This document shows, piece by piece, positions 773 to 48,811 of a stretch of DNA of 64,000 bases. The notes beneath the pieces were generated by a model. It was not told where the DNA came from. It was given only the letters and a program-made list of their open reading frames with translations, and did not search any database. Position 1 is the stretch's first letter; the number at the start of each line of letters is the position of its first letter. The position numbers were made by a program, and so were the translations under genes. This DNA comes from Candidatus Poribacteria bacterium (GTDB lineage: Bacteria; Poribacteria; WGA-4E; WGA-3G), in contig VXMD01000082.1 in assembly GCA_009841255.1 (NCBI GenBank), positions 62,001 through 126,000 on the forward strand, written 5' to 3'.

Positions 773-1273
773 TTGTCGGATGAGAGCCGAAGCGTTGATG
801 ATGAAGTCTCAACACTTCTCATGGTTCATGAGCCATTGCTGCGACACATCATCAGTTTGAATGTTGACAACCCAACTGATAGGGATGATGTTTATCAAGA
901 AACGGTGGTTGCGATCCTCGAACATTTTCGTAAGGGCAAATCGGTGGAACACCCGAAAGCGTGGATGGTACGGATTGCGAAAAACAAGTGTGCTGATTTT
1001 CATCGTCGGGATAAAAGAGACACAAACCGAGATATTGATTTCGGATCAATTATCAATCATGCTGCGTTCGGTGGCGGTGTGAGTATCGCTGACGATCAGC
1101 ATCAGGCGGTCATCGTCCAAGAGATTCACACTGTGATTTCAGAGAGGATACGCCTGGATTGGATCTTGCCAGTGTCAAAGATAAACTTGCTGATAACGAA
1201 ACGCGCCTCCCTCTCCGAAGATCTTTACCCTCAAATATGCCAGAAGTTTCACGTGAAAATAATCCCACTGTGA
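773..1273 (+). CDS. ECF-type sigma factor, apparently truncated after region 2
   Basis: The TTG start at 773 is chosen because AAGGAGG lies at 761-767, although the frame opens at 722. Region 2 of a sigma-70/ECF factor is clear at about residues 20-85: LLRHIISL, then DRDDVYQETVVAILEHF, then WMVRIAKNKCADFHRR. The region 4 helix-turn-helix is not recognisable. The remaining 75 or so residues look unlike a sigma factor and end at 1273, just before the next gene. This may be a truncated or frameshifted gene. It sits at the head of the RiPP locus, so a regulatory role for that locus is plausible but not shown. Confidence 0.6.
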   Translation: MSDESRSVDDEVSTLLMVHEPLLRHIISLNVDNPTDRDDVYQETVVAILEHFRKGKSVEHPKAWMVRIAKNKCADFHRRDKRDTNRDIDFGSIINHAAFGGGVSIADDQHQAVIVQEIHTVISERIRLDWILPVSKINLLITKRASLSEDLYPQICQKFHVKIIPL

Positions 1274-1293
1274 AAGGTCAAGCTTTTTCATGG

Positions 1294-2409
1294 ATGAAAC
1301 GGGTTGTTGTCTATCCTTATGACAGGAAAACTCATCCAATACTTGCATTCTCGGATGCTTTTGATTTTCGAGTCGATGGTGTTGTAGATCCGATTCATCC
1401 ATCTGCTCATGGAAAGGATGCTGGTATGGTCTACGATCAAGAACTTTTTAATATACCAGTACTGGCTGAATTTAGCGATATTCCAGACAATGTAGACACA
1501 CTAATTATTGGCAACACTGAAGATATTTCGATAGGTAAACGCGAAGATGCCTTATTAGAGGCTCTAACTTGGGCAGTTGCAAACGGTAAGAATGTTTTTA
1601 GTTTTTGTCCTGCTGAACCATACATTTATGGAAATCTTTACGAATTGGCTCGTCAGAAAAACTTGGTCTGGTATAGCCCTTCAAATTTCCTCTCTACCAC
1701 TTGGAATACCAATACCCAAGAATTGGAGCAAGATATTGATTCTCCTGTTATAGGAATCTTTGGTACCTCATATAATCAGGGAAAATTGCTGACGCAGCTC
1801 GCATTGAGAAAATGGTTAGGCAAAGAGGGGTATGAAGTCGGATGTATTGGGACAAATCCAATTCATGCGCTTTTAGAAGAAGGGAACTGTGTTGTGCAAG
1901 ATAAAAGAATTCCACAGTACATTTCCGTGGGTGAGCAAATCTCTTATTTGCGAGTTTCAATGGCAGAAGTATTCCGCCGTAGGCCACATCTCATTCTCGC
2001 GAGTAGCCATGGTGGTATTATTCCGCCGAATTTATATAACCTAAATACTCCAAACTATCCGGACGATTATACGTTACCTGCGCTGGCTTTCCTAATGGCT
2101 TGCAGGCCTGACGCTATGATATTAACAATCAATACAATTGATGATGAAGATTATATCCAACGTAGCATGACGACCTTAGAGACGATTAGTGGTGGAACGG
2201 TTATTGCGTTAACATTTGCGGACAAATTGGTTCAGAAAGATGCCTATTCATATAAGCAGCGGTGGGGACGGCGGCTGCGTCCCGAAGAGATCTCTCGTTT
2301 GAGAGAACGATATGCGTCAAAATTTGATTTGCCTATTTTTTGTTTTGATGTCCCAGAGCAACAGGAGCAACTTGCTCAACACGTGATTGAGGTTTTCTCT
2401 ATTGATTAA
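1294..2409 (+). CDS. Peptide maturation system P-loop protein (TIGR04066-like)
   Basis: The product starts MKRVVVYPYDRKTHPIL and is 371 residues from the ATG at 1294. The frame is open from an upstream ATG at 1159, but that part overlaps the sigma-like gene and looks non-native. The N-terminal half (YPYD, VDGVVDP, GKDAG, IPVL) and the length resemble, from memory, the TIGR04066 peptide-maturation proteins that accompany Cys-rich peptide radical SAM enzymes in clostridia. The C-terminal half has a P-loop-like GTSYNQGK, followed by L instead of S/T, and resembles DUF1611/DgcN-type nucleotide-binding domains. Its position before a radical SAM maturase and precursors supports a RiPP role. The exact reaction is unknown. 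Confidence 0.65.
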   Translation: MKRVVVYPYDRKTHPILAFSDAFDFRVDGVVDPIHPSAHGKDAGMVYDQELFNIPVLAEFSDIPDNVDTLIIGNTEDISIGKREDALLEALTWAVANGKNVFSFCPAEPYIYGNLYELARQKNLVWYSPSNFLSTTWNTNTQELEQDIDSPVIGIFGTSYNQGKLLTQLALRKWLGKEGYEVGCIGTNPIHALLEEGNCVVQDKRIPQYISVGEQISYLRVSMAEVFRRRPHLILASSHGGIIPPNLYNLNTPNYPDDYTLPALAFLMACRPDAMILTINTIDDEDYIQRSMTTLETISGGTVIALTFADKLVQKDAYSYKQRWGRRLRPEEISRLRERYASKFDLPIFCFDVPEQQEQLAQHVIEVFSID

Positions 2410-2467: not shown

Positions 2468-4177
2468 ATGAAATTGCCTATTCACGAATCTCAGGAATTT
2501 TCTCCATCTAAAGAAGACAGCAATCTGATTCCGCTTGAGCAGCTTCAGGTTTCAGATTCACAAGAATCAGGCTGCTCTTCATGTTCAAGTGGTTGTGGTA
2601 CTCCTTCAATTTCGTCTGTTATTGAAAAGGAATCCTCTGGTGGTTTCTCAGGCGAACTTGGTGACCGAGAGCGAGATTTACGTCGTCCTTTCACTCACAA
2701 GTTCAAAACAGAAAAACAAAGTTACGTTTATGATGTCAACACTGACCGAATTATCCAGGTCAGTCCGGTTGTTTACGACATCATTGATGATTTCGGTGTT
2801 CTTTCTGTGAAGGATATGATTGAGAAGTATGGTGTTCAGTACACAGCAGATGAAATTCGTGTCGCTTATGACATGATTGAAACTGCCAACCGAGACGAAA
2901 ATCTGTTCTCTAACAATCATCCGAGTGAAATTTTGTATCCACTTGATGCCCAGTCGCTTCAGCGTTTGTACGATGAGGATGTCCGGACGCTTTGTCTTGG
3001 GGTAACGGAGCAGTGCAATCTACGATGTTCTTATTGTACTTTTTCGGGCACTTACGAATTCCATAGAGCACACAACTCAACTTTTATGGACTTTGATACA
3101 GCCCGCCGGGGAATTGATTTTTTCAAGCAACATTCAATACTTTGCGATTACGTCAACCTTGCTTTCTACGGCGGCGAACCGCTATTGAATGCTTCGCTGA
3201 TAAAACAGTCTGTCGAATATGCGAATAGTATCTTTGGACGGAAACGTGTTGAATATCATATGACGACCAACGCCACATTGATTAATGATGAGATCTGTAA
3301 GATGTGGATTGACAACGATTTCAAGATCATGGTGAGTCTTGATGGTCCGAAGGAGATGCATGATAGGTACCGACTCAATGGTGCTAACAGGGGCAGTTTT
3401 GATAAAATTGCGCAGAACCTGAAGAAGTTACGTGACATGTCTCCCGATTATTATCGGAACAATCTGAAATTTAGCGTTGTACTTTCGCCTCCCTACGATT
3501 TTGAAAATCTCAATAATTTTCTCACTCAAGATCCTTTGACCGATGTCAGAACCATGCGTGCGTCTGGCGTTGATACCCAAGATACAACCTTCTTTCAGGA
3601 TTTCACTGAAGAAGAATTGGACAATAAAGGAAGGGATGAACTGAAGGATAAGTATTTTAGTGATCTGATTCAGAACAAGATTAGACACGATCAACCGGAA
3701 CGGGAGCACAGATTTATGTATGCCCTTTTCGGAGAGGGTTTGGCACAATTGATTCCCACAATTAAGGCGACGAACCCATTCCCTGAAGTCTATCATCCGG
3801 GCGGAATTTGTGTGCCGGGGTTAAAGACGCTGTTTTTGACACCAGAAGGGGATTTTTTCACGTGCGAAAAGAGTAGTACTGCCTCGGATCTCCTACGTTT
3901 GGGAAATCTTGATACAGGTTTGGATGCAGTCAAGGGGATAGCGAATATCGAAAGTTATTCACATGCTCACGATGGGTGTCGTTATTGTTATGCCTCTCGA
4001 CATTGTGGGACTTGCTTCGTCAAGGCATCTGCTGGCGAGGAGTTTGATGGTGCCATTAAGATGGACAATTGTAATAATCACCGCGCCGGGTTCCGTCAAA
4101 ACCTTACTGATATGATGACAATCATGGAAGAAAATCCAGGGGCGTTTGACCATCTCAAGGATGTAACACTTATCTGA
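2468..4177 (+). CDS. Radical SAM/SPASM peptide maturase
   Basis: At 569 residues, this is a typical RiPP-modifying radical SAM enzyme. Residues about 75-140 resemble a PqqD-like leader-binding domain (YVYDVNTDRIIQVSPVVYDI). The radical SAM cluster motif CNLRCSYC is at 183-190, followed by FYGGEPLL and the SLDG strand. A SPASM region near the C-terminus has GGICVPG, FFTCEK, then C-x2-C-x5-C-x2-C (CRYCYASRHCGTC) and DNC, enough for two auxiliary Fe-S clusters. An unusual extra GCSSCSSGCG lies at 35-44. AAGGAGG at 2447-2453 precedes the start. It probably forms thioether or related crosslinks on the Cys-rich peptides encoded just downstream. It resembles CcpM-type Cys-rich peptide maturases; that assignment is from memory. 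Confidence 0.85.
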   Translation: MKLPIHESQEFSPSKEDSNLIPLEQLQVSDSQESGCSSCSSGCGTPSISSVIEKESSGGFSGELGDRERDLRRPFTHKFKTEKQSYVYDVNTDRIIQVSPVVYDIIDDFGVLSVKDMIEKYGVQYTADEIRVAYDMIETANRDENLFSNNHPSEILYPLDAQSLQRLYDEDVRTLCLGVTEQCNLRCSYCTFSGTYEFHRAHNSTFMDFDTARRGIDFFKQHSILCDYVNLAFYGGEPLLNASLIKQSVEYANSIFGRKRVEYHMTTNATLINDEICKMWIDNDFKIMVSLDGPKEMHDRYRLNGANRGSFDKIAQNLKKLRDMSPDYYRNNLKFSVVLSPPYDFENLNNFLTQDPLTDVRTMRASGVDTQDTTFFQDFTEEELDNKGRDELKDKYFSDLIQNKIRHDQPEREHRFMYALFGEGLAQLIPTIKATNPFPEVYHPGGICVPGLKTLFLTPEGDFFTCEKSSTASDLLRLGNLDTGLDAVKGIANIESYSHAHDGCRYCYASRHCGTCFVKASAGEEFDGAIKMDNCNNHRAGFRQNLTDMMTIMEENPGAFDHLKDVTLI

Positions 4178-4224
4178 TAACGATTTAGTGTTTAACGCTT
4201 TGAGATTTGAAAGGAGGTGAAGAG

Positions 4225-4413
4225 ATGAAAAAACTTGCCAAAGTGCTCAAGCCCCAATATAGAGGGATTTCGCCAGTATCCTTGCCAACACAAGAAAAGT
4301 CTATTACATCGTACGGGTGTGTTTGTAGTTGCCTCTGTTCGAACGGCGATGTTACAGCGATGGTTTCAAATGCTGTGGGTATTGCGACGAATGCCCAAAC
4401 TGATAATAGTTAG
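4225..4413 (+). CDS. Cys-rich RiPP precursor peptide 1
   Basis: A 62-residue peptide directly after the radical SAM gene. The start at 4225 follows a strong AAGGAGG at 4211-4217. The leader begins MKKLAKVLKPQYRGISPV and contains a PT turn. The core starts with alternating cysteines at 32, 34, 36 and 38 (CVCSCLC), followed by an Ala/Val/Asn/Gly-rich tail. The two sister peptides downstream have cysteines at exactly the same positions, which makes this a confident precursor family. The product is probably a thioether-bridged peptide made by the upstream maturase and possibly glycosylated. Confidence 0.85.
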   Translation: MKKLAKVLKPQYRGISPVSLPTQEKSITSYGCVCSCLCSNGDVTAMVSNAVGIATNAQTDNS

Positions 4414-4606: not shown

Positions 4607-4672
4607 ATTGAAAAGGCCTTTTCAACTTATTACCGGTTTTATTTTTTCTTTTTGTGGAAAGGAGGTGAAAAA

Positions 4673-4858
4673 ATGAAGAAACTTTCAAAAACCCTCAGGT
4701 CCCGATACCGAGGATTGTCACCGGTACCTATGCCGACGAAGGCAGACACCATCAGTTCCTACGCGTGTGCTTGTAACTGTAGCTGTAGGAATGATGATGT
4801 AAAGGGTGCTGTAGCCAATGCTGTCGGTGATGCAGTGGGTACATCAATGAATAATTAA
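4673..4858 (+). CDS. Cys-rich RiPP precursor peptide 2
   Basis: A 61-residue peptide with start at 4673 after AAAGGAGG. The leader is MKKLSKTLRSRYRGLSPVPM followed by PT. The core motif CACNCSC places cysteines at 32, 34, 36 and 38, then a tail rich in Ala, Val, Asn and Gly. It is a paralogue of the peptides at 4225 and 5020. The leader is far better conserved than the core, as expected when one maturase serves several substrates. Confidence 0.85.
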   Translation: MKKLSKTLRSRYRGLSPVPMPTKADTISSYACACNCSCRNDDVKGAVANAVGDAVGTSMNN

Positions 4859-5019: not shown

Positions 5020-5205
5020 ATGAAGAAACTTTCAAAAGCACTCCGTCCCCAATACAAGGGACTTTCGCCGGTACCTATGCCGACCCATAGAGAAAGTATC
5101 ACCGCTTACAATTGCGGCTGTCCATGTATTTGCGTCAACAATGATGCAGCGGGTGCAGCGGGAAATTCCGCAGGGGTTTCTGTTGGTAACCAAGCGAACA
5201 AGTAA
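5020..5205 (+). CDS. Cys-rich RiPP precursor peptide 3
   Basis: A 61-residue peptide with start at 5020 after AAAGGAGG. The leader is MKKLSKALRPQYKGLSPVPM followed by PT. The core is CGCPCIC with cysteines at 32, 34, 36 and 38, then a Gly/Ala/Ser/Asn-rich tail. It is the last of the tandem precursors and the closest to the first glycosyltransferase gene. A strong stem-loop lies about 100 bp after it. Confidence 0.85.
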   Translation: MKKLSKALRPQYKGLSPVPMPTHRESITAYNCGCPCICVNNDAAGAAGNSAGVSVGNQANK

Positions 5206-5478: not shown

Positions 5479-7098
5479 ATGGTAATTGCAAGTCTATATC
5501 CGTTTACGAAGGCTCAAGATGAGTTAACTCCTATTTTCGATTGGGTTTTCATTGAATCCTTGCAAGCTCACTTTGATACAACTCCTGAATATTATGTGTT
5601 TTTGCCATACGGTTGTCAGCCTCCAGATTCAATTATAGGGACAAACTTACACATCAGGAGTACACTGGAACTCAGAGATTTTTTTCAAGAGTCTCAAGTT
5701 GATGTTTGGCATGACTTTGGATATACACCGGCATCTTCTCTTGCGTTACTCCGTCGTTTGAGTGGTCAGAATTTTCCAATTACGATGAGGGTTACTCCGT
5801 CGTTTTGGGTAAATTCACATCCAAGTGCCTATGGTGCCTTATCTGACAATGATGCCCTAATTTGTTCAAGGGGGTCGATTCATAGAATTATCGAAGTTGC
5901 TCAGAATCAAGCTGAAGACGCGGCAGCTCTGGAATGCAAGGTACCGCAGATACATACGATTCCGCTTGGCGTGGATCCTAAGCAGGTTGACTCACATAAG
6001 AGAAGGGATGCTCGCCACCTTCTTCGTCTTCCAGAGAAGATGACAATTGTCTTATGTTTGGCAGATTTTAGCCCAAGCAATAGTATGGATTTATTTCCAC
6101 TTATTCGTGCTTTTCAAACAGTTTTGGACGACTATAAGGATATTATACTGATCGTCAGTGGATCCGACGAGACTGGCTATGGCGATAGACTGAGGGAATA
6201 TCTTAACCATTTTCCATTGGGTCGTCAGATCGTATTATGGCCAAATGTAGGTGAATCTGCCACATCTCTGTTATTAGCCGCTGCAGATATATTTATTTCG
6301 CCTTCCGACACGTTTTACAATGATAACCAACGCCAAGTTCTTAGAGCGATGGCAAATGGGTTAGCCGTCATTGCCACTGATGATTATAAACATGGTTATA
6401 TTGAACAAGGTAAAACAGGTCTTAAACTAAACATGAGTGCTTTTCCATCAAGTTATAAGGCACTTAGCAATTACTTTCCATTTATCTCAGGAGATGATAG
6501 GTCGCTTATTATTTCCCAAGGGATTGCCGTTGATATTCGACAGACAGTTGCGTACTTGGATCTATTGATTAGAGATCTGTCGTTTCGTCAAACCCTTGGA
6601 AAATCGGCATCTGAATATGTGTCAAAATATCACGATATGGCATTAATTATGGGAAAATACGAAAACTTATGGTGCAACTTACGTGAAAAGATGTCTGCTA
6701 TACCTCCTCAAACAACAGTAACAGGGCATGAATTAAAGGATGACTGGTTCCCCTTAATATTATCGTCTATACCTCAAACGGTTGAGGAAAATATGCCTCT
6801 ACAAATTACCTCCTACGGTAAAGCACTACTTGAAAAACAAGATCCTATCATTTATGAACAAATGAGTGAAGTGCTTTTTCCACCAGTTATTCTCGAGATT
6901 CTCAGTTTATCAGAAAATACGACCTGTATATCTGAGATAACTCGTTCACTGTTGGAAGTGTCTGCCGAAGAGGATGTTACAGACTTAGCACCGAATATTG
7001 CTTATCATACGATGTGGTGTATAAAACAGGGGTTAGTGGCGTTAAAAGACCCTGATTCTAAAAACGTTTCGACGCGTAATGTAGGGGGGCGTACTTAA
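5479..7098 (+). CDS. GT4-like glycosyltransferase with degenerate active site and C-terminal wHTH-like domain
   Basis: A 539-residue protein with a GT-B fold pattern: IPLGVDP in the middle, then ADIFISPSD. In the usual E-x7-E position it has NDNQRQVLR, so both donor-binding glutamates are missing. The last 80 or so residues resemble a winged-helix-like module that is also present at the end of the next protein. The start ATG at 5479 follows AAGGA. Its stop overlaps the next start (TAATG), so the two are translationally coupled. Loss of the glutamates suggests a non-catalytic partner, or a changed donor site. It probably acts on the precursor peptides or on a carrier in this locus. Confidence 0.75.
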   Translation: MVIASLYPFTKAQDELTPIFDWVFIESLQAHFDTTPEYYVFLPYGCQPPDSIIGTNLHIRSTLELRDFFQESQVDVWHDFGYTPASSLALLRRLSGQNFPITMRVTPSFWVNSHPSAYGALSDNDALICSRGSIHRIIEVAQNQAEDAAALECKVPQIHTIPLGVDPKQVDSHKRRDARHLLRLPEKMTIVLCLADFSPSNSMDLFPLIRAFQTVLDDYKDIILIVSGSDETGYGDRLREYLNHFPLGRQIVLWPNVGESATSLLLAAADIFISPSDTFYNDNQRQVLRAMANGLAVIATDDYKHGYIEQGKTGLKLNMSAFPSSYKALSNYFPFISGDDRSLIISQGIAVDIRQTVAYLDLLIRDLSFRQTLGKSASEYVSKYHDMALIMGKYENLWCNLREKMSAIPPQTTVTGHELKDDWFPLILSSIPQTVEENMPLQITSYGKALLEKQDPIIYEQMSEVLFPPVILEILSLSENTTCISEITRSLLEVSAEEDVTDLAPNIAYHTMWCIKQGLVALKDPDSKNVSTRNVGGRT

Positions 7099-8840
7099 TG
7101 CGCATATTTGGGACATTTTTACCACCCGATGTGAGTATGAACGATCTAAGTCATCAGAAAGGATCTAGCCGCGGCATATATGGTGCTGGGGTTGCGACGC
7201 AGCAATTTATGATCAACCTGTTGCAGCATGGAGATTTTGATGAGTACCATCTTTTTGATCCGAATCGTCATACAACACCACAGGAAGGTGAGGCGGAATC
7301 CTGTTTTGGGCTAATTGAGCCGGATGCGCGCCTAAAACTGCTGATGGTTGAAGAGTTTGAAGAGGCTTTAAAAAAAAATGATTACTTAGCGTTCCACAGA
7401 CCGCGAGGTCCCGCTATTGATCCGTGGATTTACCTCCGGAACCAATTGGGTAGAAAAAATGTTCCAATCACGGGTGTCACGCATACGCTTAGCTACCACG
7501 TGCAATTAATTGATTTCCTTACATTTTTGATGATAGGCGCTCGTCCATGGGATTCAATTGTGTGTCTTGAAGAACCTGCCCGTCGGGTCGTGGAAAATCT
7601 TTTTCAGCATTTGCAGACGCGTTTGTACCAGCAGTTTGGTATTAATATAAAATATGAAGGTCGATTGGACAACATTCCGCTTGGGGTTGACACACAAACT
7701 TATCGTCCACGCGATAAGGAGGCATTAAGACATCAATTTGGCTTACCGCTGGATAAAGTCATGCTTCTCTGGGTGGGTCGGTTTTCGCATTACGATAAGA
7801 TGGATCTACGTCCGCTACTTCTGGCTTTCAAAATTGCCTTGGGGAAATGTCAGGAAAATAAAGCTGTGCTTGTATTGGCTGGAGACGATAGCCGGCACAA
7901 TTATGCGGAGAGAATCAAAATCCTTGCGACTCAATTAGGAATTGAAGAGCATTTGATTATACTGACAGATCGACCACGAATTGACTTTCCACTTCTCTAT
8001 TCATCGGCAGATATTTTTGTCTCACCGAGCGATAACATACAAGAGACATTTGGTCAGACAGTTTTGGAAGGTATGTCTTCTGGTATGCCGGTTGTATGTT
8101 CAGATTGGGAAGGTTACAGTATTTCAGTGCTCCACGAGAAGACTGGATTTCGCATTCCTACGTATTGGATGGAGTGCGATGGCGGTATCTGTGATTATGC
8201 GCCGACATCTCCGTGGTTGCTTAATCAATTTTATTTAAGCCAATCTATCTGTTTTGATGTTCAACAGATGGCAGATGCGTTATCCTTGCTGATTGAACAT
8301 GATACCCTACGATTAAAGATGGGATTGGCAGCGCGTCAACATGTCCTTGAAACTTACGACTGGAAGGTTATCATTCACCGCTATATTGGATTGTGGGAGG
8401 AATTGCATCAGATAGCCGCCTCCTACCCGGTTCCCGACCCCATATCATTGTCTTGGTTTCGTCCGCAATACTTTAAAACTTTTGAACACTATGCTACGTC
8501 GACGATTCAATCAACAACAGAAGTAAAAGGCACTGATTGTGCTTGGGCGACTCTCGGTGAGGATAATTGCCGACCATGGTATGAAGAATTGGATATTAAG
8601 GTTGATCCAGAGATTTTCGATCATATTCTCAATTTGGCGAACGATTGGATCACAGTTGCGGAATTGGAGAAGAACCTTTCTAATTACCTGAAGATATCCA
8701 CCGAAAAATTTCGATATCATCTTCTCTGGTTGCTGAAATACCATCGGCTTACCCTTAATGTGGACACCATCGGGGAGATGTCCAAAGAATTAGCGGCAGC
8801 GATTGTTAGCAAGGCATCGGATTTTGAGGCACAGACTTAG
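7098..8840 (+). CDS. GT4-family glycosyltransferase, catalytically intact
   Basis: A 580-residue GT-B enzyme. The donor-site motif E-x7-E is intact (ETFGQTVLE), preceded by ADIFVSPSD and followed by GMPVVCSDW. IPLGVDTQTYRPRD marks the interdomain linker. The C-terminal 80 residues (VDPEIFDHILNL onward) match the winged-helix-like tail of the upstream protein. It overlaps that gene by one base. It is likely the active half of a glycosyltransferase pair that decorates the Cys-rich peptide. Sugar and acceptor cannot be read from sequence. Confidence 0.8.
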   Translation: MRIFGTFLPPDVSMNDLSHQKGSSRGIYGAGVATQQFMINLLQHGDFDEYHLFDPNRHTTPQEGEAESCFGLIEPDARLKLLMVEEFEEALKKNDYLAFHRPRGPAIDPWIYLRNQLGRKNVPITGVTHTLSYHVQLIDFLTFLMIGARPWDSIVCLEEPARRVVENLFQHLQTRLYQQFGINIKYEGRLDNIPLGVDTQTYRPRDKEALRHQFGLPLDKVMLLWVGRFSHYDKMDLRPLLLAFKIALGKCQENKAVLVLAGDDSRHNYAERIKILATQLGIEEHLIILTDRPRIDFPLLYSSADIFVSPSDNIQETFGQTVLEGMSSGMPVVCSDWEGYSISVLHEKTGFRIPTYWMECDGGICDYAPTSPWLLNQFYLSQSICFDVQQMADALSLLIEHDTLRLKMGLAARQHVLETYDWKVIIHRYIGLWEELHQIAASYPVPDPISLSWFRPQYFKTFEHYATSTIQSTTEVKGTDCAWATLGEDNCRPWYEELDIKVDPEIFDHILNLANDWITVAELEKNLSNYLKISTEKFRYHLLWLLKYHRLTLNVDTIGEMSKELAAAIVSKASDFEAQT

Positions 8841-8939: not shown

Positions 8940-10835
8940 ATGATATACCGCTTTAGCGAGACCTTCAGAAATTTTACAAGTTTTCTGACGGATACCATGA
9001 ACCCCCTTTCCGAAATTGGCAAAACAGTTAGGCATTACCCAAGAGCCATTGGACTGATATGGCGTGCTAGCCCGAAAGAGACGGTTGTATTTTCCTTCTT
9101 TAATTTGCTATCAGCTGCTATCACACCCTTGCAGATATGGCTTTCAAAGTACATCGTTGATGAGGTGATTGCTGCGGTACAGGCGACTGAAGGCACCTCA
9201 ACGACGCATCTCCGGATGATTGCTATTCTTGTCGGATTGCAACTTCTCATTTGGGTGGCAAGCAACGCTATCACGAGTATTACAAACATGCTCTTATACC
9301 CACTTAATCTCAGAGTCACGTACTACACTGAAAAACTGATTTTCCAGAAACTGTCAAGGTTAGACTTGGCTTTTTTTGAATCTCCGGTCTTTTTCGACCA
9401 GATGATGCATGCGCGAACACAGTCCGTTCAACGTATTCCAAATTTCGTTGGTAATTTCGCAGGGCTGCTGTCAAGTATATTGATGCTAATTAGCCTGTTA
9501 ATTATGGTAGCGAATCTCCATATTCTGGCAATGTTGGGCATAGTTTTTCTATCAGTTCCGCATCTGGTTGTAACCAGTTATTTCGGCAAACGCTGGTTTC
9601 GCCTCCTGTTCCGACAGACCGCCGAACGACGTTTGGCAGACTATCTCTCAAATCTACTTAGCACCCGCGAGTCAGTGAAAGAGATTAAGCTTTTTGGACT
9701 CCATAAGGTGCTTATTAACCGTTTTCATGTGTTAAGCCAGAAATTCGTGCGTGAAAATCATACGTTGTCGCTCACACAAGAAATATCCCAAGTTGTTCTA
9801 AACCTACTTTCAACAGTTAGTACTGCTGGTGTCTGGCTGTATGCGGCACTTCGTGCGATAGGACAGCATATTACAATAGGTGATATGATGCTTTATTTTC
9901 AAGCCTCAGAAAGAGCTCGATCTACGATTGTGAATGTATTTAGGTCTAGCGGCACGTTTTATGAAAACAGTCTATTCCTTGAACATCTGTTTGGTTTTTT
10001 AGACTTGGATCCTAATGCGGTTGAAGGCACACTCCAACAACCCGAAAACCAGACCGAACTGAAAAAAGTCGATCATCCAATCCGGAAGGGTATTATATTT
10101 GAAGATGTCTCGTTCACATATCCAGGAACAGAAGAATCGGTTCTGAAAAATGTCAGTTTCACGATTGCGCCCGGCGAGTGTATTGCGATTGTCGGACGAA
10201 ACGGTGTGGGTAAAACAACTCTTGTCAAACTGCTTACCCGTCTCTATGATCCGAGTAGTGGCAATATTCGCCTTGACGGAATTGATCTCAAGGCATATCA
10301 TCTTGAAAATCTTTACAGCCAATTTAGTGTTGTCTTTCAGGATTTTCTCCAGTACCACTTCAGTGTTCAAGAGAACATAGGATTTGGGCAAGTGGATGCC
10401 GGTAATGATATGGAGCGTATTCGTACTGCAGCAGAGAAAGCAGGGAGCCTGGCGCGTATTGAGAAGTTACCAAAAGGGTTTGATACAGTATTGGGGAGGA
10501 CACTGGAGGAAGGGGTTGATCTTTCTGGGGGTGAATGGCAGAAAATTGCCTTAGCACGTGCTTTTATGCGGGATGCTCAGATTTTAGTCCTTGATGAACC
10601 GACTGCGGCACTTGACGCGGTAGCGGAAGAAGAGATTTTTCAGCGTTTCAATGAATTAACTACTGGTAAAACGTCAGTGATAATTTCACACCGTTTCTCT
10701 ACAGTGAAAATGGCGGACCGAATTTTGGTATTAGAAGATGGTCGGTTGGTTGAGCAGGGAACGCACGATGAATTAATGAAACGTAACGGCATTTACGCGG
10801 AGATGTACACGCTTCAGGCACAGCGTTATAGTTAA
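8940..10835 (+). CDS. ABC transporter, fused membrane and ATPase domains (peptide exporter)
   Basis: A 631-residue half-transporter. About six membrane segments fill residues 30-330, then an ATPase with Walker A GRNGVGKTT, signature LSGGEWQK, Walker B ILVLDEPT and the H-loop ISHRFST. There is no N-terminal C39 peptidase domain, so the leader must be removed by another protein. It probably works as a homodimer and exports the modified peptide. The start at 8940 is weakly supported; an ATG at 8997 (MNPLSEIG) is an alternative. Confidence 0.85.
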   Translation: MIYRFSETFRNFTSFLTDTMNPLSEIGKTVRHYPRAIGLIWRASPKETVVFSFFNLLSAAITPLQIWLSKYIVDEVIAAVQATEGTSTTHLRMIAILVGLQLLIWVASNAITSITNMLLYPLNLRVTYYTEKLIFQKLSRLDLAFFESPVFFDQMMHARTQSVQRIPNFVGNFAGLLSSILMLISLLIMVANLHILAMLGIVFLSVPHLVVTSYFGKRWFRLLFRQTAERRLADYLSNLLSTRESVKEIKLFGLHKVLINRFHVLSQKFVRENHTLSLTQEISQVVLNLLSTVSTAGVWLYAALRAIGQHITIGDMMLYFQASERARSTIVNVFRSSGTFYENSLFLEHLFGFLDLDPNAVEGTLQQPENQTELKKVDHPIRKGIIFEDVSFTYPGTEESVLKNVSFTIAPGECIAIVGRNGVGKTTLVKLLTRLYDPSSGNIRLDGIDLKAYHLENLYSQFSVVFQDFLQYHFSVQENIGFGQVDAGNDMERIRTAAEKAGSLARIEKLPKGFDTVLGRTLEEGVDLSGGEWQKIALARAFMRDAQILVLDEPTAALDAVAEEEIFQRFNELTTGKTSVIISHRFSTVKMADRILVLEDGRLVEQGTHDELMKRNGIYAEMYTLQAQRYS

Positions 10836-11693: not shown

Positions 11694-13151
11694 TTATTTC
11701 AAGTCGCATTTAAGGAACGATAATTGTGCCATGATAAAGAACAGGATGTTGAAAACGATCAACAGTCCGAGCGGAAAAATCACGCTCTGATGCGAGATGT
11801 GTTCTTTAAACCTCGGCACAGCGTCGGGATTCACCAATTTTTGAGATAACCCCTCCCTCACAGGATAGATGTGGAGACTGTTCGGGTCATCTCTATCCTC
11901 CGTTTTGATAAAATCTATAAATGTGTCTCTATAACGGCGCACCTGTTTAACGAAATCCATATAACTGACGATTCCGGTGTTCGCGAGTCCTTCCATGGCG
12001 TATTGGAAACAGACCGTTGGAGAGATTTGGGTGAGTTCGCGGGCGAATTGCACCTGCCGCAATTGCTGATCTACACGCGCATCTGCTATGCGAGTTCTCG
12101 TTTCAGACCTTCTCCTGAAGTAGGTCGCCCATTGCCGCGTTGCTGATGGATTGTTGACGGAAGGGGCTTCGCTGAGTTTTGTTATTTTCAGCATTTCCGT
12201 CGGTTGAAATTCATCATCTATGTTTGCTAATTGCAAGCGTTTTTCCGCGGATATCCTTTCTATTGATGGGATTGGATCAAGGGTTCCGACGAAGAGTCCA
12301 AGTAAACTCGGAAAGATAAATGCTAAACAGACCCATGTTAACAACAGCCAGACTAAACTGGTGCTGGCGTTTGAGACGCGACTTGAGAAAAACAGTCCCA
12401 AAAAAATGAAGATAGAGATATGCAACGCGAAGAGTCCGATCATCCCTAAAATCCGAAGCCAACTGCCTGAATCAAAGGGAATGCTCCCTGACAGGTAGGT
12501 GATGAGAAGATTCATGAGGACTCCAATCAGGAGTGGGACGATGAGGGTTGCAAATGTCCCCAAGTATTTCGCGAATAATACCTGTCCACGAGAGATTGGG
12601 TTGGACATCATGAGACTGAGTGTTCCCCGAGCGCGTTCCCCGGCGATGGCATCGAAAGTGAATAAAATGACAAAGAAACTCATGAAGACCCCGATAAATA
12701 CCCAGTCAATTTTGATGAGCGTAGTTGCGGCCCCACCATGATTTGAGGGTAGATATTCTAAGGACCACAACTCCCGCCACCTATAGTTTTCAACCACACC
12801 CCCGTTGTCTCCGCCACGTCCCCCGCGCGCGCCTGCGATCGTGATAGAACGGGGTATGAAGGCATCAGCTCCATCAGCACAGAACTTCAACTGGGGCGGA
12901 CGTTTGGGTATCTCTGCTGGACCGATCATCCCTAACTCTCCTAAACCCTTGGCAGCGTATTCTTCAATATGAGATAATCCTTGGGTTACCTTGCGGTTAT
13001 AATCACGTATTTCCGCTGCATACCCATTATCACCGAATCCGTATATGAGGGCATTGGCGATCATCAAGATAGGCAGAAGGATTATCATCAAAACGAATCG
13101 CAGCGTTGTGAGATTGTGATATATCTCTTTTTTTCCAATATGCCAAATCAT
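11694..13151 (-). CDS. ABC-2 type permease subunit (GldF/DUF3526-like)
   Basis: A 485-residue membrane protein. One N-terminal membrane segment (MIILLPILMIANALIYGF) is followed by a soluble loop of about 120 residues, four to five segments, a second large loop, and a final segment near the C-terminus. The sequence GERARGTLSLMMSNPISRGQVLFAK is the hallmark cytoplasmic loop of ABC-2 permeases. It is the last gene of a unit with the next permease and a sigma/propeller fusion. No matching ATPase gene is seen in the window. Confidence 0.8.
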   Translation of the reverse strand: MIWHIGKKEIYHNLTTLRFVLMIILLPILMIANALIYGFGDNGYAAEIRDYNRKVTQGLSHIEEYAAKGLGELGMIGPAEIPKRPPQLKFCADGADAFIPRSITIAGARGGRGGDNGGVVENYRWRELWSLEYLPSNHGGAATTLIKIDWVFIGVFMSFFVILFTFDAIAGERARGTLSLMMSNPISRGQVLFAKYLGTFATLIVPLLIGVLMNLLITYLSGSIPFDSGSWLRILGMIGLFALHISIFIFLGLFFSSRVSNASTSLVWLLLTWVCLAFIFPSLLGLFVGTLDPIPSIERISAEKRLQLANIDDEFQPTEMLKITKLSEAPSVNNPSATRQWATYFRRRSETRTRIADARVDQQLRQVQFARELTQISPTVCFQYAMEGLANTGIVSYMDFVKQVRRYRDTFIDFIKTEDRDDPNSLHIYPVREGLSQKLVNPDAVPRFKEHISHQSVIFPLGLLIVFNILFFIMAQLSFLKCDLK

Positions 13152-13204: not shown

Positions 13205-14728
13205 TTAGCTTATTTGATATCGAAGGAATGATACATACACGCCTATAAACAGGACGACATTCCACGCCAACAGGATCAAGATATCGCTTGATGCCCGGGA
13301 AAGACTCTGAAATAGAGAGGTGTGTGGGTTCTGAAAAACAGGGAGATCTTTAAACTCTGCCGCCCCTTGATCGCTGGAAAACCATGCTTTCGCGGAAAAG
13401 GCGTTTTTACCGGTGAGATAGTTGACAACTTGACGTTTATAACTCCTTGCCCCTCTAATAAAGTCTTGGTAACTTTCCGTGTCTGTATCAGTTATCGCAC
13501 CAACGGCAAATCGGTATGCGTCTGCGAAAGAAAATCGGGAGATATCTTTGGCGAACCGTCCGTTGCTTTTTTCAACTTCTTCTCTCTGTTTGAGGAGTGC
13601 TTCTGCCCGGTTTGCGTAGTCAATGCGTAGCGGTTCTTGGTAGCTCAATACTTCCTGAAGTTTGGAGACATCCACGATGTGGATCGGCTTGATCTCATAG
13701 AATTCACTAAAGCCAAGTTCGCCCGGTGAACTCGAATTCCAAGATATTGCCAAAGCACCATCACTTATCTGAGAAATCGCGCTAATTGGGTATTTATATC
13801 CCCATTTTTTCATAAGGTAGGCATCCCGTTCTTCCCTGAAATCTTCCCATCTCTGCTGAATATGCTGCAGGATCTCCTTTTCAGCTTGTGGTTGATAGGG
13901 CGAGAATTTCATGACTGCGAAGGTTGCTATATTGGAATGTAGGATTGTTAGAATTCCCCAAATAAACATTGAAAGGATGAGCGTGGTGGTTGCTTCCTTT
14001 GTCCATACGGATAGGAGCATCCCTAACAGATAACACGTTGACACGTAAAATAGGGAAAGGATAAGCACAGCAACGAGTCGTAACAGATCAGCACTATTGA
14101 AATTGGTCGCAGGAGAAGCGTAAGCGATAAAGATTCCAACAATAAAACTAACAATCACAATCGGGAACAGGGATAACATGCCGCCGAGGTATTTCCCTAT
14201 CACGAGGGTGTCCCTGGGAATCGGATTGGATAATACTAATTTGAGTGTGCCATCCTCGCGTTCCCCTGAAATCGTGTTGTAAGCGAACAGGATGGTCAAT
14301 GCGCTGAGGACAATTTTAAAGACGAAAATAACATCGATGGAAAGAAAGATAGAGAGGAACGGGTTATCGGATCCGTGTTTCTGTGCGGCTTTTTCCCAGA
14401 TAGGTGTTGCGAGTTGAATACTCACCATATCGGCACCGGATTTCTCCATACCGACGTTGAAAATACTCAGTGAGTTAGGTTTTCTGTGTGCCTTGGGATT
14501 AACTTGGCTGTAAAGGTCCCATGTCCGGACTGTTTCTTGATGTTCCTGAACGGCGGTGTGGTATGCTGCGAGTCGTTTTTCATAATCTTCAACCTGAACG
14601 AAAACGGCAGCAGCAGTCGACATCAGGCAGATGAGAAAACCGATCATGAATCGGGATGTCAATACGTTTGAAATCCATTCTCGCTGAATAACCAACCAAA
14701 GTATTGCCAAGGGAACAGTTCCTACCAC
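13205..14728 (-). CDS. ABC-2 type permease subunit (GldF/DUF3526-like)
   Basis: A 507-residue paralogue of the following permease with the same layout: N-terminal segment, soluble loop, membrane core, second soluble loop and last C-terminal segment. GEREDGTLKLVLSNPIPRDTLVIGK is the conserved ABC-2 loop. The open frame starts at a GTG (14728) only 7 bp from the upstream stop; an internal TTG at 14710 has a better-spaced AGGA, so the start is uncertain. The two permeases may form a heterodimer. Confidence 0.8.
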   Translation of the reverse strand: MVGTVPLAILWLVIQREWISNVLTSRFMIGFLICLMSTAAAVFVQVEDYEKRLAAYHTAVQEHQETVRTWDLYSQVNPKAHRKPNSLSIFNVGMEKSGADMVSIQLATPIWEKAAQKHGSDNPFLSIFLSIDVIFVFKIVLSALTILFAYNTISGEREDGTLKLVLSNPIPRDTLVIGKYLGGMLSLFPIVIVSFIVGIFIAYASPATNFNSADLLRLVAVLILSLFYVSTCYLLGMLLSVWTKEATTTLILSMFIWGILTILHSNIATFAVMKFSPYQPQAEKEILQHIQQRWEDFREERDAYLMKKWGYKYPISAISQISDGALAISWNSSSPGELGFSEFYEIKPIHIVDVSKLQEVLSYQEPLRIDYANRAEALLKQREEVEKSNGRFAKDISRFSFADAYRFAVGAITDTDTESYQDFIRGARSYKRQVVNYLTGKNAFSAKAWFSSDQGAAEFKDLPVFQNPHTSLFQSLSRASSDILILLAWNVVLFIGVYVSFLRYQIS

Positions 14729-14735
14729 CTTTCAA

Positions 14736-17681
14736 TTATTTACGAGACAGAGCGTAATTTTCTTCCTCAAGTGAGATGTGGAACATCCTACGCTGTTGGG
14801 TCAGAATATGAAGCCTATTGCGGTCGACGGCAAGCGAGAGAACCTTACCCGGAACGCTTGGAGAAATCTGTTCCAATTTATTATCAGCATCCAAATGGTA
14901 GACTCCCGTATCACCGGCACCATACACACGGGTGTGATCTATAGCGAATCGGTCTATGACGATACGCTCACCTGTTCCATCGGTTAGCACTCGCCAGTGT
15001 GCGCCGGTTTGGGAACTCAAGACCCCTTTATCTGTTGCAATGTAAACCGTCGAGCCTGTAAAGACGATCTCCTTGAAACGGGTAAAGGAAAATGGAAGGC
15101 TTGACGTAACGTCTCTCCAACTATCCCCGCCATCAAGCGATTGAAACAACTTGCCATCTTGTTTGCCTACATAGACGACTTTCCCTGAGGCCGCTAACTT
15201 GAATCCATTTTTCAAATCCTTATCCACCTGTTCGTTGGTGTCTACCAATCCAGTATCTTTCCACTCTGCATCGCCGGGTTGCCATTTGAGAAGTTTTCCC
15301 TTATATTCGGCGTAAAACGTCTTGTCACTGATGGCAAACGATCCAACTTCTGTAAAGTCGGTAATCGTGTTCAACATGGTTGTCAATTGGTCGCCTTTTT
15401 CTACGCTATTGGGTCGAGTTTCTCTATCAAAAGCAGGAATACCGTGAACCGGAATAAATTCATTGCGCTTCGCGGATAAATAAAAGACGCGCACATTTTC
15501 CGCTTCAGGCACAATTTCATAAAGAACACCATCTGCAACGACTAACCTTGAATCAAATGAGAAATCAACGAGAAGCTGTTCCTCCGCTATGGGTTCAAGC
15601 GTGCGGTCATTAACAACTGAACCAATGCCTTTCCACGACACACCACCATCGGTTGATTCGGCAATAGCACTACCAGTATGTGCATAAAGTCTATTATTGT
15701 GTACAACCAAATTCAGTACCCTGGTTCCTACCATCCCATTCATAAAGGAATGCCACGATTTTCCGCCATCAACCGTGCGCTGAATACCGAACCCACCCGC
15801 TTTATAAAACGTGTTCTCATCTACAGCCACAACTGGAAATCTACTCACCATAAATGAATTCGGGTCAAACCCAAGGCTTATCCACGTTTGTCCCCGATCT
15901 GTTGAGTAGAAATTGGAGGCACCTGTCACCAGAAGTGCTTCGCCAGCAACCGAAATCTTCATACCAGATGGTACCCTCATAAACGAGGATTTACTCGTAG
16001 GCGTTATTTCAGTCCATGTCGCTCCTAAGTCAGCTGAGCGGAAAATCCTCTTTGAATCTAAATCTTTGACGCGTACCACTGGTCTTCTCTCGCGTGGACT
16101 TAATTCATGTGGTTTTACAATAGAAAGATCAGGGGCTGTTGCAACATAGAGGTCGTTTTTCATGACCTCCAAGGAATGAATGGCTTGTGATGGGGTCACA
16201 GGTAATTGTTGCCAAACACCTAAGCCAAAACGATAAAGCCCTCTGTTTGTACCAGCGAATAGTGTATTTCCAATTGTTGCCACTGCTGAGATTTTTTTCT
16301 CGGTCAATCCATTGTTAATAGGGGTCCAATGTGTGCCAGCATCCGTAGAGCGGAATACACCTTTGTTTTGAAGGGCAAGATACATCGCAATATCTGTTCG
16401 CGAGTTATCCGATCGTGTTTCATTCATCACAATGAGTCCTACGGCATGTCCCTTTGGCCGCGGGCAAAATACCTTCCACGTCTTACCTTCATCGGTAGAA
16501 GCAAATATCTCATCAGTAGCGACGATATAGGAAGTGCCTGCATACTCCGCCATAGGCATTCGGTTCCCTTTGATTGGAGCACTTATGTTGACTGGCATCC
16601 ACGTGGTTGTATCTGCTGGCAACCTATAGACTCCTGTTGGTGAAGCAGCGTAAAGCATTCCCGTGGACGTGGCAAAAATGTCAAATATAGGACCGGTTTG
16701 CGGTGCAATTGTCTGGGTCCATTGCAAGGTAGAAGACTTGGAGAAATTTACCCCCTCAGTGGGTGTTAGGACGGTATTAGAAATCTGCGCGCCGGTGCTG
16801 ACGTTTTTATCGGTGGTAACAGCACGTCCGACCTGATTTCGCACATTCGGTTTTGATTCAATATCAAGAACAATAGGTGCGTCAATAATTTCAATTGTGG
16901 GTTCAGATTGTGCCTCGAAACTATACGGCTTCTGAAAATAGTTAAGGTATTGATTGCTCAAACCCAATAGGAGCAGTGTCACCAAAACCACGGCTGCACC
17001 GAAAGCCGCCCACGGGAGTAGCGGCTTTCCAGCCGTAGGTGGCGTTAATTTAATATCGGCGACTTTCTGAACAATGCTCTCTGTTAGGCTGGCTGGTAAT
17101 GGCACGCTTCCGAGGACCTCTTGAACTAAGAGTTCTTCATCCTGTTTTAGACGTTCTCGTGCCCGCTGGAGTCGACTCGTGATTGTATGCACCGAGACCC
17201 CTAAAAATTTGCTAATTTCCTTTGTCGTCATTTCACCGAGATAGTAGAGCGTCATGACAGTGCGTTCGCTCTCGGGCAGTTTTTCCAGAAGTTTCTTAAC
17301 GAGTTCGTGACGATGCTCTCGGGCGTCCGTTTCGTGTTGCTCCGAAATATAGCGTTCATAAGACGTTCTGTGTACCTCTGCCACGGGGACATCCTCCAGT
17401 GATCCTATTAGAGATTTGTTGCCTTGGAGCCAAGTATTACAGAGTCGGTTTGTGATGACATAAAGCCACCCAGAGAACTGATTGGGGTCCTTTAGCTTTG
17501 GGAGATGCTTGTATACTCGAACAAAGGCGTCCTGGGTAATCTCTTCGGCATGATGAAAATCACCGATCCTCCGCCAAGCCAAAGCGTGAACACCTTTTTG
17601 ATGTTTTTTGACTAAAGCAGTGAATGCTTCGCTGTCGCCTGACAAAATCCTGCGGATGAGTTGAACATCATCTTCTACCAT
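14736..17681 (-). CDS. ECF sigma factor fused through a membrane helix to a beta-propeller
   Basis: A 981-residue protein. Residues 1-185 form a complete ECF sigma factor: region 2 (HAEEITQDAFVRVYKHL, then FSGWLYVITNRLCNTWL) and region 4 (ERTVMTLYYLGEMTTKEISKFLGVSVHTITSRLQRARERL). A single membrane helix spans about 221-241. The rest is a BNR/Ycf48-like beta-propeller with repeated F-x-S-T-D-x-G-x-T-W motifs (STDEGKTW, STDAGTHW, SADLGATW, STDRGQTW). The propeller is expected outside the cytoplasm with the sigma part inside, making a one-piece membrane sensor. It heads a unit with the two ABC-2 permeases. Confidence 0.85.
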   Translation of the reverse strand: MVEDDVQLIRRILSGDSEAFTALVKKHQKGVHALAWRRIGDFHHAEEITQDAFVRVYKHLPKLKDPNQFSGWLYVITNRLCNTWLQGNKSLIGSLEDVPVAEVHRTSYERYISEQHETDAREHRHELVKKLLEKLPESERTVMTLYYLGEMTTKEISKFLGVSVHTITSRLQRARERLKQDEELLVQEVLGSVPLPASLTESIVQKVADIKLTPPTAGKPLLPWAAFGAAVVLVTLLLLGLSNQYLNYFQKPYSFEAQSEPTIEIIDAPIVLDIESKPNVRNQVGRAVTTDKNVSTGAQISNTVLTPTEGVNFSKSSTLQWTQTIAPQTGPIFDIFATSTGMLYAASPTGVYRLPADTTTWMPVNISAPIKGNRMPMAEYAGTSYIVATDEIFASTDEGKTWKVFCPRPKGHAVGLIVMNETRSDNSRTDIAMYLALQNKGVFRSTDAGTHWTPINNGLTEKKISAVATIGNTLFAGTNRGLYRFGLGVWQQLPVTPSQAIHSLEVMKNDLYVATAPDLSIVKPHELSPRERRPVVRVKDLDSKRIFRSADLGATWTEITPTSKSSFMRVPSGMKISVAGEALLVTGASNFYSTDRGQTWISLGFDPNSFMVSRFPVVAVDENTFYKAGGFGIQRTVDGGKSWHSFMNGMVGTRVLNLVVHNNRLYAHTGSAIAESTDGGVSWKGIGSVVNDRTLEPIAEEQLLVDFSFDSRLVVADGVLYEIVPEAENVRVFYLSAKRNEFIPVHGIPAFDRETRPNSVEKGDQLTTMLNTITDFTEVGSFAISDKTFYAEYKGKLLKWQPGDAEWKDTGLVDTNEQVDKDLKNGFKLAASGKVVYVGKQDGKLFQSLDGGDSWRDVTSSLPFSFTRFKEIVFTGSTVYIATDKGVLSSQTGAHWRVLTDGTGERIVIDRFAIDHTRVYGAGDTGVYHLDADNKLEQISPSVPGKVLSLAVDRNRLHILTQQRRMFHISLEEENYALSRK

Positions 17682-19998: not shown

Positions 19999-21135
19999 TC
20001 AAAACAGTTGTATGAGTTTCAGGTAAAAGGGACCTTGGCAAAGAATCGTGAGAAGGGTACCGACAGTGATCACGGGAGCAAAGCGAATCGCGGGTTGAAC
20101 CCTTATCTGATTCCCGAATTCGGCGAGTGCGCCCTCCACTGCGAGGTGCTGCAATTGTGCTATCTTCTCGGTGTCAAGTCCCGCAGGATCGGGTGAGATA
20201 ACGATGTTATCATCGTGGCCGCTTGAAAACTCAACCTGTTTCTTCTCGTAACGGACAGTACCATCGGGTTGTGAAACCCGAACGATCTGTTCAGCGGGAA
20301 TCATACCGATTTGGAGATCCTTTACATCAACGGCATGCTCTAACGTCAGACGTGCTAAACTCAACACCAACTGCTTCGTAACCACGAAAGCAAGGAGATA
20401 GAGTCCTAAGAAGAAGGCAAAACCGGAGAGAAGTGCTGGCACAGACGGGCTTGACCGCACTGCGAGCCAGACACATGCAAACCCGACACTCGCGTAATAG
20501 ACCGGCGTTTTGGGCACGGGTGATAGCAATTTCTGTATTAAAACGAATGTCACTAAAACCGAGACCAGACGCAGAAACGGGTCGGGATGCCATCCAAGCA
20601 GCGCCAACAAGGGAGTCAATGCGGTTCCAACACCTATGAAGAAAAGGACATTGAAAAGTTTTTCAAGAAGGGATGCTTTTTGGAAGTTCACCATCAAGAA
20701 ACCGCGGAAAAGCGCCAATTTGTTTGGCACCGATACAAATCTGAAAAGTAGGTACCCCAGCATCCCAACTGAATACGGAATAATAATATTCAGGGCAAGG
20801 ATCAAAGGTGGAAAACTCAAGGGACCATTCAAGTTTCTGAAAAGCGATAGTGGAAAAATCAGACACAATCCCCAGAAGAGTTTGGAATCTCCGGGTGAGA
20901 AGACCCCGAACCAATAGAGGGCAAAGCCCATAAGCCCACTCCCAAGGAAAAGCGCTAAGATATAGAGCGGTGTTGTTGTGCCGAGATACCACGCCATCAA
21001 TTGACTCAGCGTCCCTCCATAAAGGAGTCCGAGCGAGCAGACGTTGTAGATCTTCTGTGTCTTCAGATCGGTATAACTGGCGTATCCACAGAAAATAAGC
21101 GCTAAAAAAATAAGAAAGTATTCATAGATTGACAT
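19999..21135 (-). CDS. A24 prepilin-peptidase-like membrane protease
   Basis: A 378-residue polytopic membrane protein. The N-terminal part has the two conserved aspartates of A24 aspartic proteases: YTDLKTQKIYN at about 22-32 and SPGDSKLFW near 80, the GxGD-type motif. It lacks the N-terminal cysteine/methylation domain of classical PilD, like CpaA/TadV enzymes, but carries about 200 extra residues with more membrane segments and a soluble C-terminal domain. It follows a gene for a Cys-rich peptide whose leader resembles a Flp pilin, so it may remove that leader. No pilus genes are nearby. Confidence 0.7.
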   Translation of the reverse strand: MSIYEYFLIFLALIFCGYASYTDLKTQKIYNVCSLGLLYGGTLSQLMAWYLGTTTPLYILALFLGSGLMGFALYWFGVFSPGDSKLFWGLCLIFPLSLFRNLNGPLSFPPLILALNIIIPYSVGMLGYLLFRFVSVPNKLALFRGFLMVNFQKASLLEKLFNVLFFIGVGTALTPLLALLGWHPDPFLRLVSVLVTFVLIQKLLSPVPKTPVYYASVGFACVWLAVRSSPSVPALLSGFAFFLGLYLLAFVVTKQLVLSLARLTLEHAVDVKDLQIGMIPAEQIVRVSQPDGTVRYEKKQVEFSSGHDDNIVISPDPAGLDTEKIAQLQHLAVEGALAEFGNQIRVQPAIRFAPVITVGTLLTILCQGPFYLKLIQLF

Positions 21136-21437: not shown

Positions 21438-21704
21438 TTAGAGATCCATGCATTTAGAGCTCCATGTCCCCAAACAGGTCCCATAATCGATTGGACCACT
21501 ACAGGTATAGAAACAACCTTCTCCTGAATCACAGTCACTGTCGTCCGCGCACTCAAATCCAGCCTGAACGGGTGAGGGGACCATCGTCTGTGCTAACAAA
21601 ACACTCCCTGTCGCTACACCGAGTGCAAGGGGGGCTTTGGCACTGACGCGTCCATCTTCGGACTCAAGGAACCGCTTGATTTTACTGCGGATGTTATTCT
21701 TCAT
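21438..21704 (-). CDS. Six-cysteine secreted peptide precursor with pilin-like leader
   Basis: An 88-residue peptide. The leader has a basic start and KRFLESEDGR, then a hydrophobic stretch of about 20 residues (LALGVATGSVLLAQTMV). This resembles Flp-type prepilins, where A24 peptidases cut after the Gly, but VQA-GF at 47-51 also fits a signal peptidase I site. The core has six cysteines at 52, 58, 64, 68, 77 and 85, enough for three disulfides, and many Ser/Thr that could be glycosylated. The ATG follows directly on the stop of the upstream glycosyltransferase (TAAATG) with AAAGGAG inside that gene. The best guess is a secreted glycosylated Cys-rich peptide. Confidence 0.7.
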   Translation of the reverse strand: MKNNIRSKIKRFLESEDGRVSAKAPLALGVATGSVLLAQTMVPSPVQAGFECADDSDCDSGEGCFYTCSGPIDYGTCLGTWSSKCMDL

Positions 21705-28597: not shown

Positions 28598-28679
28598 GCT
28601 ACGTCTGAGTATCACCAGAAACCTGCGCGTAAGCGAAGCGGAGCGCAGAGCGAGAACCTAATAAATTAAAACGCTTCCA

Positions 28680-48804: not shown

Positions 48805-48811
48805 TGTGCTT

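Follow-up and report, generated by a model that had tools for sequence, protein, structure and literature searches.

Tandem pairs of intact and degenerate GT4 glycosyltransferases in putative peptide-modification loci of Candidatus Poribacteria

Introduction

Glycocins such as sublancin and glycocin F are ribosomal peptides whose modification relies on a glycosyltransferase and whose export relies on an ATP-binding cassette (ABC) transporter, and the S-glycosyltransferases of the SunS type are single enzymes of family GT2. A division of labour between two proteins is known from GtfA/GtfB, in which GtfA transfers the sugar and GtfB is the catalytically inactive, acceptor-binding chaperone of the GtfAB complex (PMC12809243; PMC6973325). 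Fusions of glycosyltransferases (GTs) to the recognition element (RRE) of ribosomally synthesized and post-translationally modified peptides (RiPPs) have been predicted in silico by RRE-Finder in putative RiPP clusters (PMC7470986; PMC12710340), the 2025 paper naming these fusions with PF00535, a GT2 family (PMC12710340). Here we analyse two peptide loci in a 64,000-nucleotide stretch of DNA from a Candidatus Poribacteria bacterium (contig VXMD01000082.1, positions 62,001 to 126,000; hereafter the window), each of which holds a tandem pair of GT4-type glycosyltransferases with one intact and one degenerate member. Poribacteria are mostly uncultured sponge symbionts.

Results

One member of each pair has lost donor-binding residues

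An earlier note on this DNA had claimed, from four short motifs, that each peptide locus has a GT pair with one degenerate member. All four motifs were found at their loci, reading from 6319 (+), 8043 (+), 24137 (-) and 22349 (-), and the claim holds for both loci, although the coordinates it was filed under, 5479-8840, span the locus-1 pair only. The order of the genes is degenerate then intact in locus 1 and intact then degenerate in locus 2:

5479..7098, +, G1A, degenerate GT4 of locus 1 with EX7E, Arg and Lys lost (Pfam Glyco_trans_1_4, E 2e-10; motif comparison; predicted GT-B fold)
6319..6345, +, NDNQRQVLR, degenerate motif of G1A
7098..8840, +, G1B, intact GT4 of locus 1 (Pfam Glycos_transf_1, E 6.5e-23; R, K, E and E all present)
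8043..8069, +, ETFGQTVLE, intact motif of G1B
23526..25238, -, G2A, intact GT4 of locus 2 with N-terminal RRE (Glycos_transf_1, E 3.5e-24; PqqD, E 9.6e-4)
24111..24137, -, ETFGLTVLE, intact motif of G2A
21705..23504, -, G2B, degenerate GT4 of locus 2 with N-terminal RRE (sub-cut-off GT4 match; predicted GT-B fold; its profile matches GT4 structures)
22323..22349, -, GTPLSIVLE, degenerate motif of G2B, with a two-residue deletion and the first Glu lost

Each of the four proteins has a match among the GT4-type families of Pfam, that of G2B lying under the curated cut-off (E 2e-4, 21.9 bits). In GT4 retaining glycosyltransferases such as MshA and PimA, both glutamates of the EX7E motif, together with an upstream arginine and lysine, contact the nucleotide sugar. 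The corresponding residues, R297, K302, E368 and E376, were invariant when 16 divergent intact relatives were aligned, and profile alignment placed them opposite MshA's own Arg, Lys and pair of Glu. Both intact members of the window carry the EX7E motif and the donor-binding Arg and Lys, whereas neither degenerate member has the full set: GR...KG has lost its Arg and Lys and EX7E its first glutamate, and degenerate members of the locus-2 type also have a two-residue deletion within the EX7E motif. These three residues were lost jointly, and those replacing them differ between the degenerate lineages. Many degenerate members retain the second EX7E glutamate; since GTPLSIVLE does so and NDNQRQVLR has lost both, GTPLSIVLE is the less degenerate of the two motifs. 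AlphaFold models of both degenerate GTs (mean predicted local distance difference test scores 71 and 74) match GT-B structures, among them those of MshA, BshA, PimB' and HepE, and both proteins are predicted to keep the GT-B fold.

The pattern recurs across the phylum

Regions fetched because they matched, many of them related loci, gave 41 tandem GT pairs from Candidatus Poribacteria; all 41 combine one intact with one degenerate member and none holds two of a kind, which extends the claim beyond the window and rules out a chance pattern, the 41 being related loci chosen by match and so neither independent events nor a probability. The intact gene comes first in 36 pairs and the degenerate gene in five, the latter being of the locus-1 type. 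Two further pairs with the same pattern (L067 and L068) lie in the same genome as the window. Among 84 genomes of the phylum, a locus-2-type GT query found matches in 34, often several per genome, and a locus-1-type query in 8, a few of them weak. Four intact GTs had no detected partner; L073 and one in L085 lie near contig ends, L074 and L075 do not. The matches listed from a contig search with the intact relatives were for the most part ordinary GT4 enzymes from outside Poribacteria.

Matches of the degenerate profile in Latescibacterota were considered as degenerate partners and rejected, because the intact profile fits them better (~320 versus 180 bits) and the matches start after the RRE region. 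Relatives of one Latescibacterota genome (L199-L206) hold intact, RRE-less relatives of the locus-2 GT, and in several of these loci a second, larger GT-like open reading frame (ORF) adjoins, together with a long ORF whose start looks, by eye, like a cyclic-nucleotide-binding domain. Another Latescibacterota ORF (L091, 764-1525, +) appears by eye to carry a GT9-like (heptosyltransferase) segment behind an N-terminus that resembles an RRE. In L004 (1381-3660, -) a single ORF combines a radical S-adenosylmethionine (SAM) N-terminal part with a degenerate GT; it stands on a 3.7-kb contig, so that it could be a natural fusion or an assembly artefact.

Two origins, co-divergence and purifying selection

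In a maximum-likelihood tree of 86 GT domains, which contains long branches flagged by the program, the degenerate label needs two changes and well-supported branches force two. The degenerate clades stand apart, with support of 100/100 for locus 1 and 100/99 for locus 2. The tree indicates two origins of degeneracy, one in each locus type, and the argument from two non-identical loci is therefore stronger than the earlier note could know, because its two degenerate lineages are separate. In the locus-2 types the branching of the intact clade is mirrored in the degenerate one, and the partner distance matrices of 36 locus-2 pairs were correlated with a Mantel r of 0.979, none of 2000 permutations exceeding 0.42.

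The median ratio of non-synonymous to synonymous substitution rates (dN/dS) among close relatives was 0.093 in intact genes and 0.155 in degenerate ones, the latter value indicating that degenerate genes are maintained under purifying selection. Decay into pseudogenes was considered for them, but a dN/dS of ~0.16 and open frames argue against it. The suggestion that one active and one supporting subunit form a heterodimer is thus strengthened in part: the intact/degenerate pattern in two loci and across the phylum, purifying selection and, for locus 2, co-divergence agree with it, the association of the two proteins and the inactivity of the degenerate one being its presumed parts.

RREs on both partners of locus 2

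Profile comparison indicates that both locus-2 partners begin with a CteB-like RRE, their N-termini matching 5wgg with E 1.9e-13 for the degenerate and 3.1e-11 for the intact profile. The entry 5wgg is the solved structure of CteB, a radical SAM maturase whose RRE binds the leader. The two elements are placed as follows:

24984..25220, -, RRE of G2A, about residues 7-85 (profile A3 versus CteB 5wgg, E 3.1e-11)
23250..23486, -, RRE of G2B, about residues 7-85 (profile A1 positions 11-88 versus CteB 5wgg, E 1.9e-13; the model has strands, then three helices)

The ratio of RRE to GT divergence was 1.35 (1.24-1.48) in intact and 0.93 (0.90-0.96) in degenerate members, the bootstrap intervals being non-overlapping, and the divergence of the RRE itself was equal in both. 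This argues for equal constraint on the RRE in both and for relaxed constraint on the GT domain in the degenerate member only. Better conservation of the RRE in the degenerate than in the intact member was considered but found no support, zero lying within the bootstrap interval of the difference.

These ratios bear on a scheme in which each partner is active in its own right and the two work in series, the degenerate GT using an altered active site to attach a second sugar or to accept an unusual donor. Retention of the second EX7E glutamate in most degenerate members would suit such an enzyme, as would the selection acting on both partners and the predicted GT-B fold; but joint loss of three donor-binding residues (Arg, Lys, first Glu) with replacements that differ by lineage, and relaxation of the GT domain relative to the RRE in degenerate members only, make the scheme unlikely.

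Precursors and a prepilin-type peptidase beside locus-2 pairs

Two genes next to the locus-2 pair recur with it:

21438..21704, -, 88-residue Cys-rich precursor with a prepilin-like leader (member of a 61-ORF family near related pairs)
19999..21135, -, A24 (prepilin-type) peptidase homologue (Pfam Peptidase_A24, PF01478, E 2.6e-6, 28.3 bits, cut-off 26.5)

The precursor family comprises 61 small ORFs in 35 loci and adjoins nearly all locus-2 pairs. Its leader has the consensus MKkNlRgKIreFl.SEeGkVGvKsPLtLGvAtgs.LLAq and is followed by a variable, usually Cys-rich core. The leader of the window's own precursor (21438-21704, -) also gave a weak match to HxsA3 (E 0.061), hinting at a leader type shared with the His-Xaa-Ser system. 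Homologues of the A24 peptidase were present in 30 of 44 loci examined; the GDxK site is kept in 30 of 31 and the first Asp motif was recognised in 24 of 31. Prepilin or A24 peptidases are not mentioned in a review of RiPP leader proteases (PMC10885120).

The degenerate gene adjoins the precursor and A24 genes, and its RRE is as conserved as that of the intact partner, as would be expected if the degenerate member were a separate leader-binding carrier or regulator that guides the precursor, for example, to the A24 peptidase or the exporter and has no part in glycosylation. At odds with this are the strictness of the tandem arrangement, divergence in step with the intact GT, the keeping of the GT-B part, relaxed though it is, and the lack of a detected RRE in locus-1 degenerate members; we consider such a role improbable, more so than enzymes in series.

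Other recurrent neighbours of the pairs are a methyltransferase (14 loci), a phosphomannomutase-like enzyme (13 loci), a sugar nucleotidyltransferase (9 loci) and ABC-2 permeases. In the window, the neighbours of locus 2 are:

17931..19838, -, cytochrome c554 / DsbA-thioredoxin fusion (Pfam; family in 18 loci beside pairs)
14736..17681, -, single ORF joining an extracytoplasmic function (ECF) sigma factor to BNR/sortilin repeats (Pfam; family in 15 loci)
13205..14728, -, ABC-2 permease (Pfam ABC2_membrane_2, E 5e-29; family in 6 loci)
11694..13151, -, second ABC-2-like permease (same sequence family as 13205-14728)

The cytochrome c554/DsbA-thioredoxin fusion could be relevant to disulfide bonds in the Cys-rich peptides.

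A GT pair within a CcpM-like cluster

Locus 1 runs from a TIGR04066-like protein through a CcpM-like radical SAM enzyme and three Cys-rich precursors to the GT pair and an ABC exporter, its TIGR04068 (362.7 versus 500 bits) and TIGR04066 (76 versus 200 bits) matches both lying under the curated cut-offs. The genes flanking the pair are:

1159..2409, +, DUF1611/TIGR04066-like peptide maturation protein (Pfam DUF1611, E 8.9e-8; NCBIfam TIGR04066, E 2e-21, under cut-off)
2468..4177, +, CcpM-like radical SAM/SPASM peptide maturase (TIGR04068, 362.7 bits, cut-off 500)
4207..4413, +, precursor peptide 1, core CVCSCLC (ORF; leader common to all three precursors)
4652..4858, +, precursor peptide 2, core CACNCSC (ORF; weak CLI_3235 match, E 0.02)
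5020..5205, +, precursor peptide 3, core CGCPCIC (ORF; weak CLI_3235 match, E 0.098)
8940..10835, +, ABC exporter, permease and ATPase (Pfam ABC_tran 1e-33, ABC_membrane 4e-10)

A short ORF at 4423-4545 (+), beginning MKTLSTVLKSRYRGLSLVPMTTNTDT..., resembles the locus-1 precursor leader, lacks a Cys core and has the look of a fourth precursor that has decayed. An RRE was also considered for the C-terminal domain of the two GTs of locus 1 and rejected, since that domain gave no significant match in the structural database. A close relative of locus 1 (L070) also holds a CcpM-like enzyme and two similar precursors, while in L071 (10844-12520, +) a locus-1-type pair stands beside a homologue of asparagine-synthetase-like macrolactam cyclases in place of the CcpM-like enzyme; judged by position only, in L072 (5275-6951, -) a further locus-1-type pair has the same kind of cyclase neighbourhood. 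The cyclase setting suggests that this type of pair may serve more than one type of RiPP.

Short precursors with a conserved leader and a variable core are present in both loci, and an RRE on the modifying enzyme in locus 2, as in RiPP clusters. GT4 enzymes and sugar-nucleotide genes are, on the other hand, common in polysaccharide clusters, and sugar-nucleotide genes recur beside some pairs, so that synthesis of a surface polysaccharide, with the nearby small ORFs incidental, also has to be weighed. We regard it as very improbable in view of the N-terminal RREs on both locus-2 partners, the conserved-leader family beside nearly every locus-2 pair, and the peptide radical SAM enzyme and three Cys-rich precursors of locus 1.

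Elsewhere in the window a dispersed repeat of ~220 bp occurs at 28372-28598 (+), 52171-52397 (-) and 48809-49020 (+), the copies being 98.7% and 81% identical.

Discussion

The explanation we favour as the simplest, and judge probable, is that each pair is a two-subunit peptide glycosyltransferase acting on a RiPP precursor, in which a catalytic intact GT4 works with a non-catalytic, peptide-holding partner, in the manner of GtfA/GtfB but outside that family. The intact GT4 would bind the nucleotide sugar and transfer the sugar to the precursor; the degenerate GT4, having kept the GT-B fold and lost usual donor binding, would hold or present the peptide, and the two probably form a complex. 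In locus 2 the RREs of both subunits would bind the conserved precursor leader, which the adjacent A24 peptidase probably cuts before or during export. The locus-1 pair would be an addition to a CcpM-like radical SAM cluster, where the N-terminal region of the CcpM-like enzyme probably recognises the Cys-rich precursors and the ABC exporter would release the product. Complex formation, inactivity of the degenerate member, leader binding and glycosylation itself, with its sugar, its acceptor residue and the order of the steps, are the parts of this scheme that we infer.

Such a division of labour is suggested by motif loss at three separate sites in degenerate members, all invariant in intact ones, and by the uniform composition of the pairs; by the two well-supported degenerate clades, the co-divergence of partners, the dN/dS values and the RRE/GT ratios; and by the CteB-like RREs, the precursor family, and the A24, sugar-phosphate mutase and nucleotidyltransferase genes that recur nearby. 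Several observations weigh against it. Retention of the second EX7E glutamate in most degenerate members makes residual nucleotide binding possible. The locus-1 GTs, degenerate members included, yielded no RRE, and within the window locus 2 has no sugar-nucleotide genes next to it. Some intact relatives of the locus-1 type stand alone, one at a contig end (L073) and two inside contigs (L074, L075), so that a partner is neither universal in this type nor always needed.

With somewhat less than even confidence, we propose that the locus-2 systems represent an undescribed class of glycosylated RiPPs in Poribacteria. In this class the catalytic and the pseudo-GT4 half of a heterodimer would each use an RRE to read a prepilin-type leader, which a dedicated A24 peptidase would then remove, and partnership with a pseudo-GT would have evolved two or more times within the phylum. 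If this reading of leader and peptidase is true, it would provide a tractable type of RiPP with hypervariable cores, in a phylum where the GT query matches 34 of 84 genomes. The two independent natural cases of an intact/degenerate partnership in one genome suggest more generally that, as in GtfA/GtfB, glycosyltransferases acting on peptides time and again enlist an inactive copy of their own kind as partner.

Comparison with known systems

Unlike glycocin clusters with their single GT2 enzyme of the SunS type, the Poribacteria loci carry a pair of GT4 proteins. As in the RRE-Finder predictions, the GTs of locus 2 carry a fused RRE within a putative RiPP cluster; the passages located in those reports, however, describe no intact/degenerate pair, and here the enzymes are of family GT4 with an RRE on both partners. 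We found no description of the paired, half-degenerate RRE-GT form in the open literature, most subscription papers being outside that scope. Locus 1 resembles the clostridial CcpM/CLI_3235/TIGR04066 clusters in its CcpM-like radical SAM enzyme, TIGR04066-like protein, CxCxC precursors and ABC exporter, but its matches all fall under the curated cut-offs, and in seven clostridial CcpM regions examined there was no GT related to the Poribacteria pairs. The locus-2 leader, for its part, presumably resembles those of Flp-type prepilins, which come with TadV/CpaA peptidases: both have a basic start, an acidic-Gly site and a hydrophobic stretch, and an A24 gene adjoins. The locus-2 precursors differ in having Lys/Arg rather than Glu at +5, a hypervariable, usually Cys-rich core, and a GT pair with RREs at their side.

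GtfA/GtfB, to which the earlier note had likened the pairs, is a fair functional analogue (PMC12809243) and not the same family. No match to DUF1975 or another GtfA/GtfB-specific family was obtained for the four GTs in Pfam or NCBIfam, and no SecA2/SecY2 genes were seen among the annotated neighbours. The neighbouring substrates here are RiPP precursors, not the serine-rich repeat proteins of accessory Sec O-glycosylation, the locus-2 partners bear RREs, and the degeneracy of the Poribacteria partners arose independently. What the systems have in common, read here from the genes, is a GT4 enzyme encoded next to a degenerate GT-like partner, as in all 41 of our pairs, and probably directed at a polypeptide.

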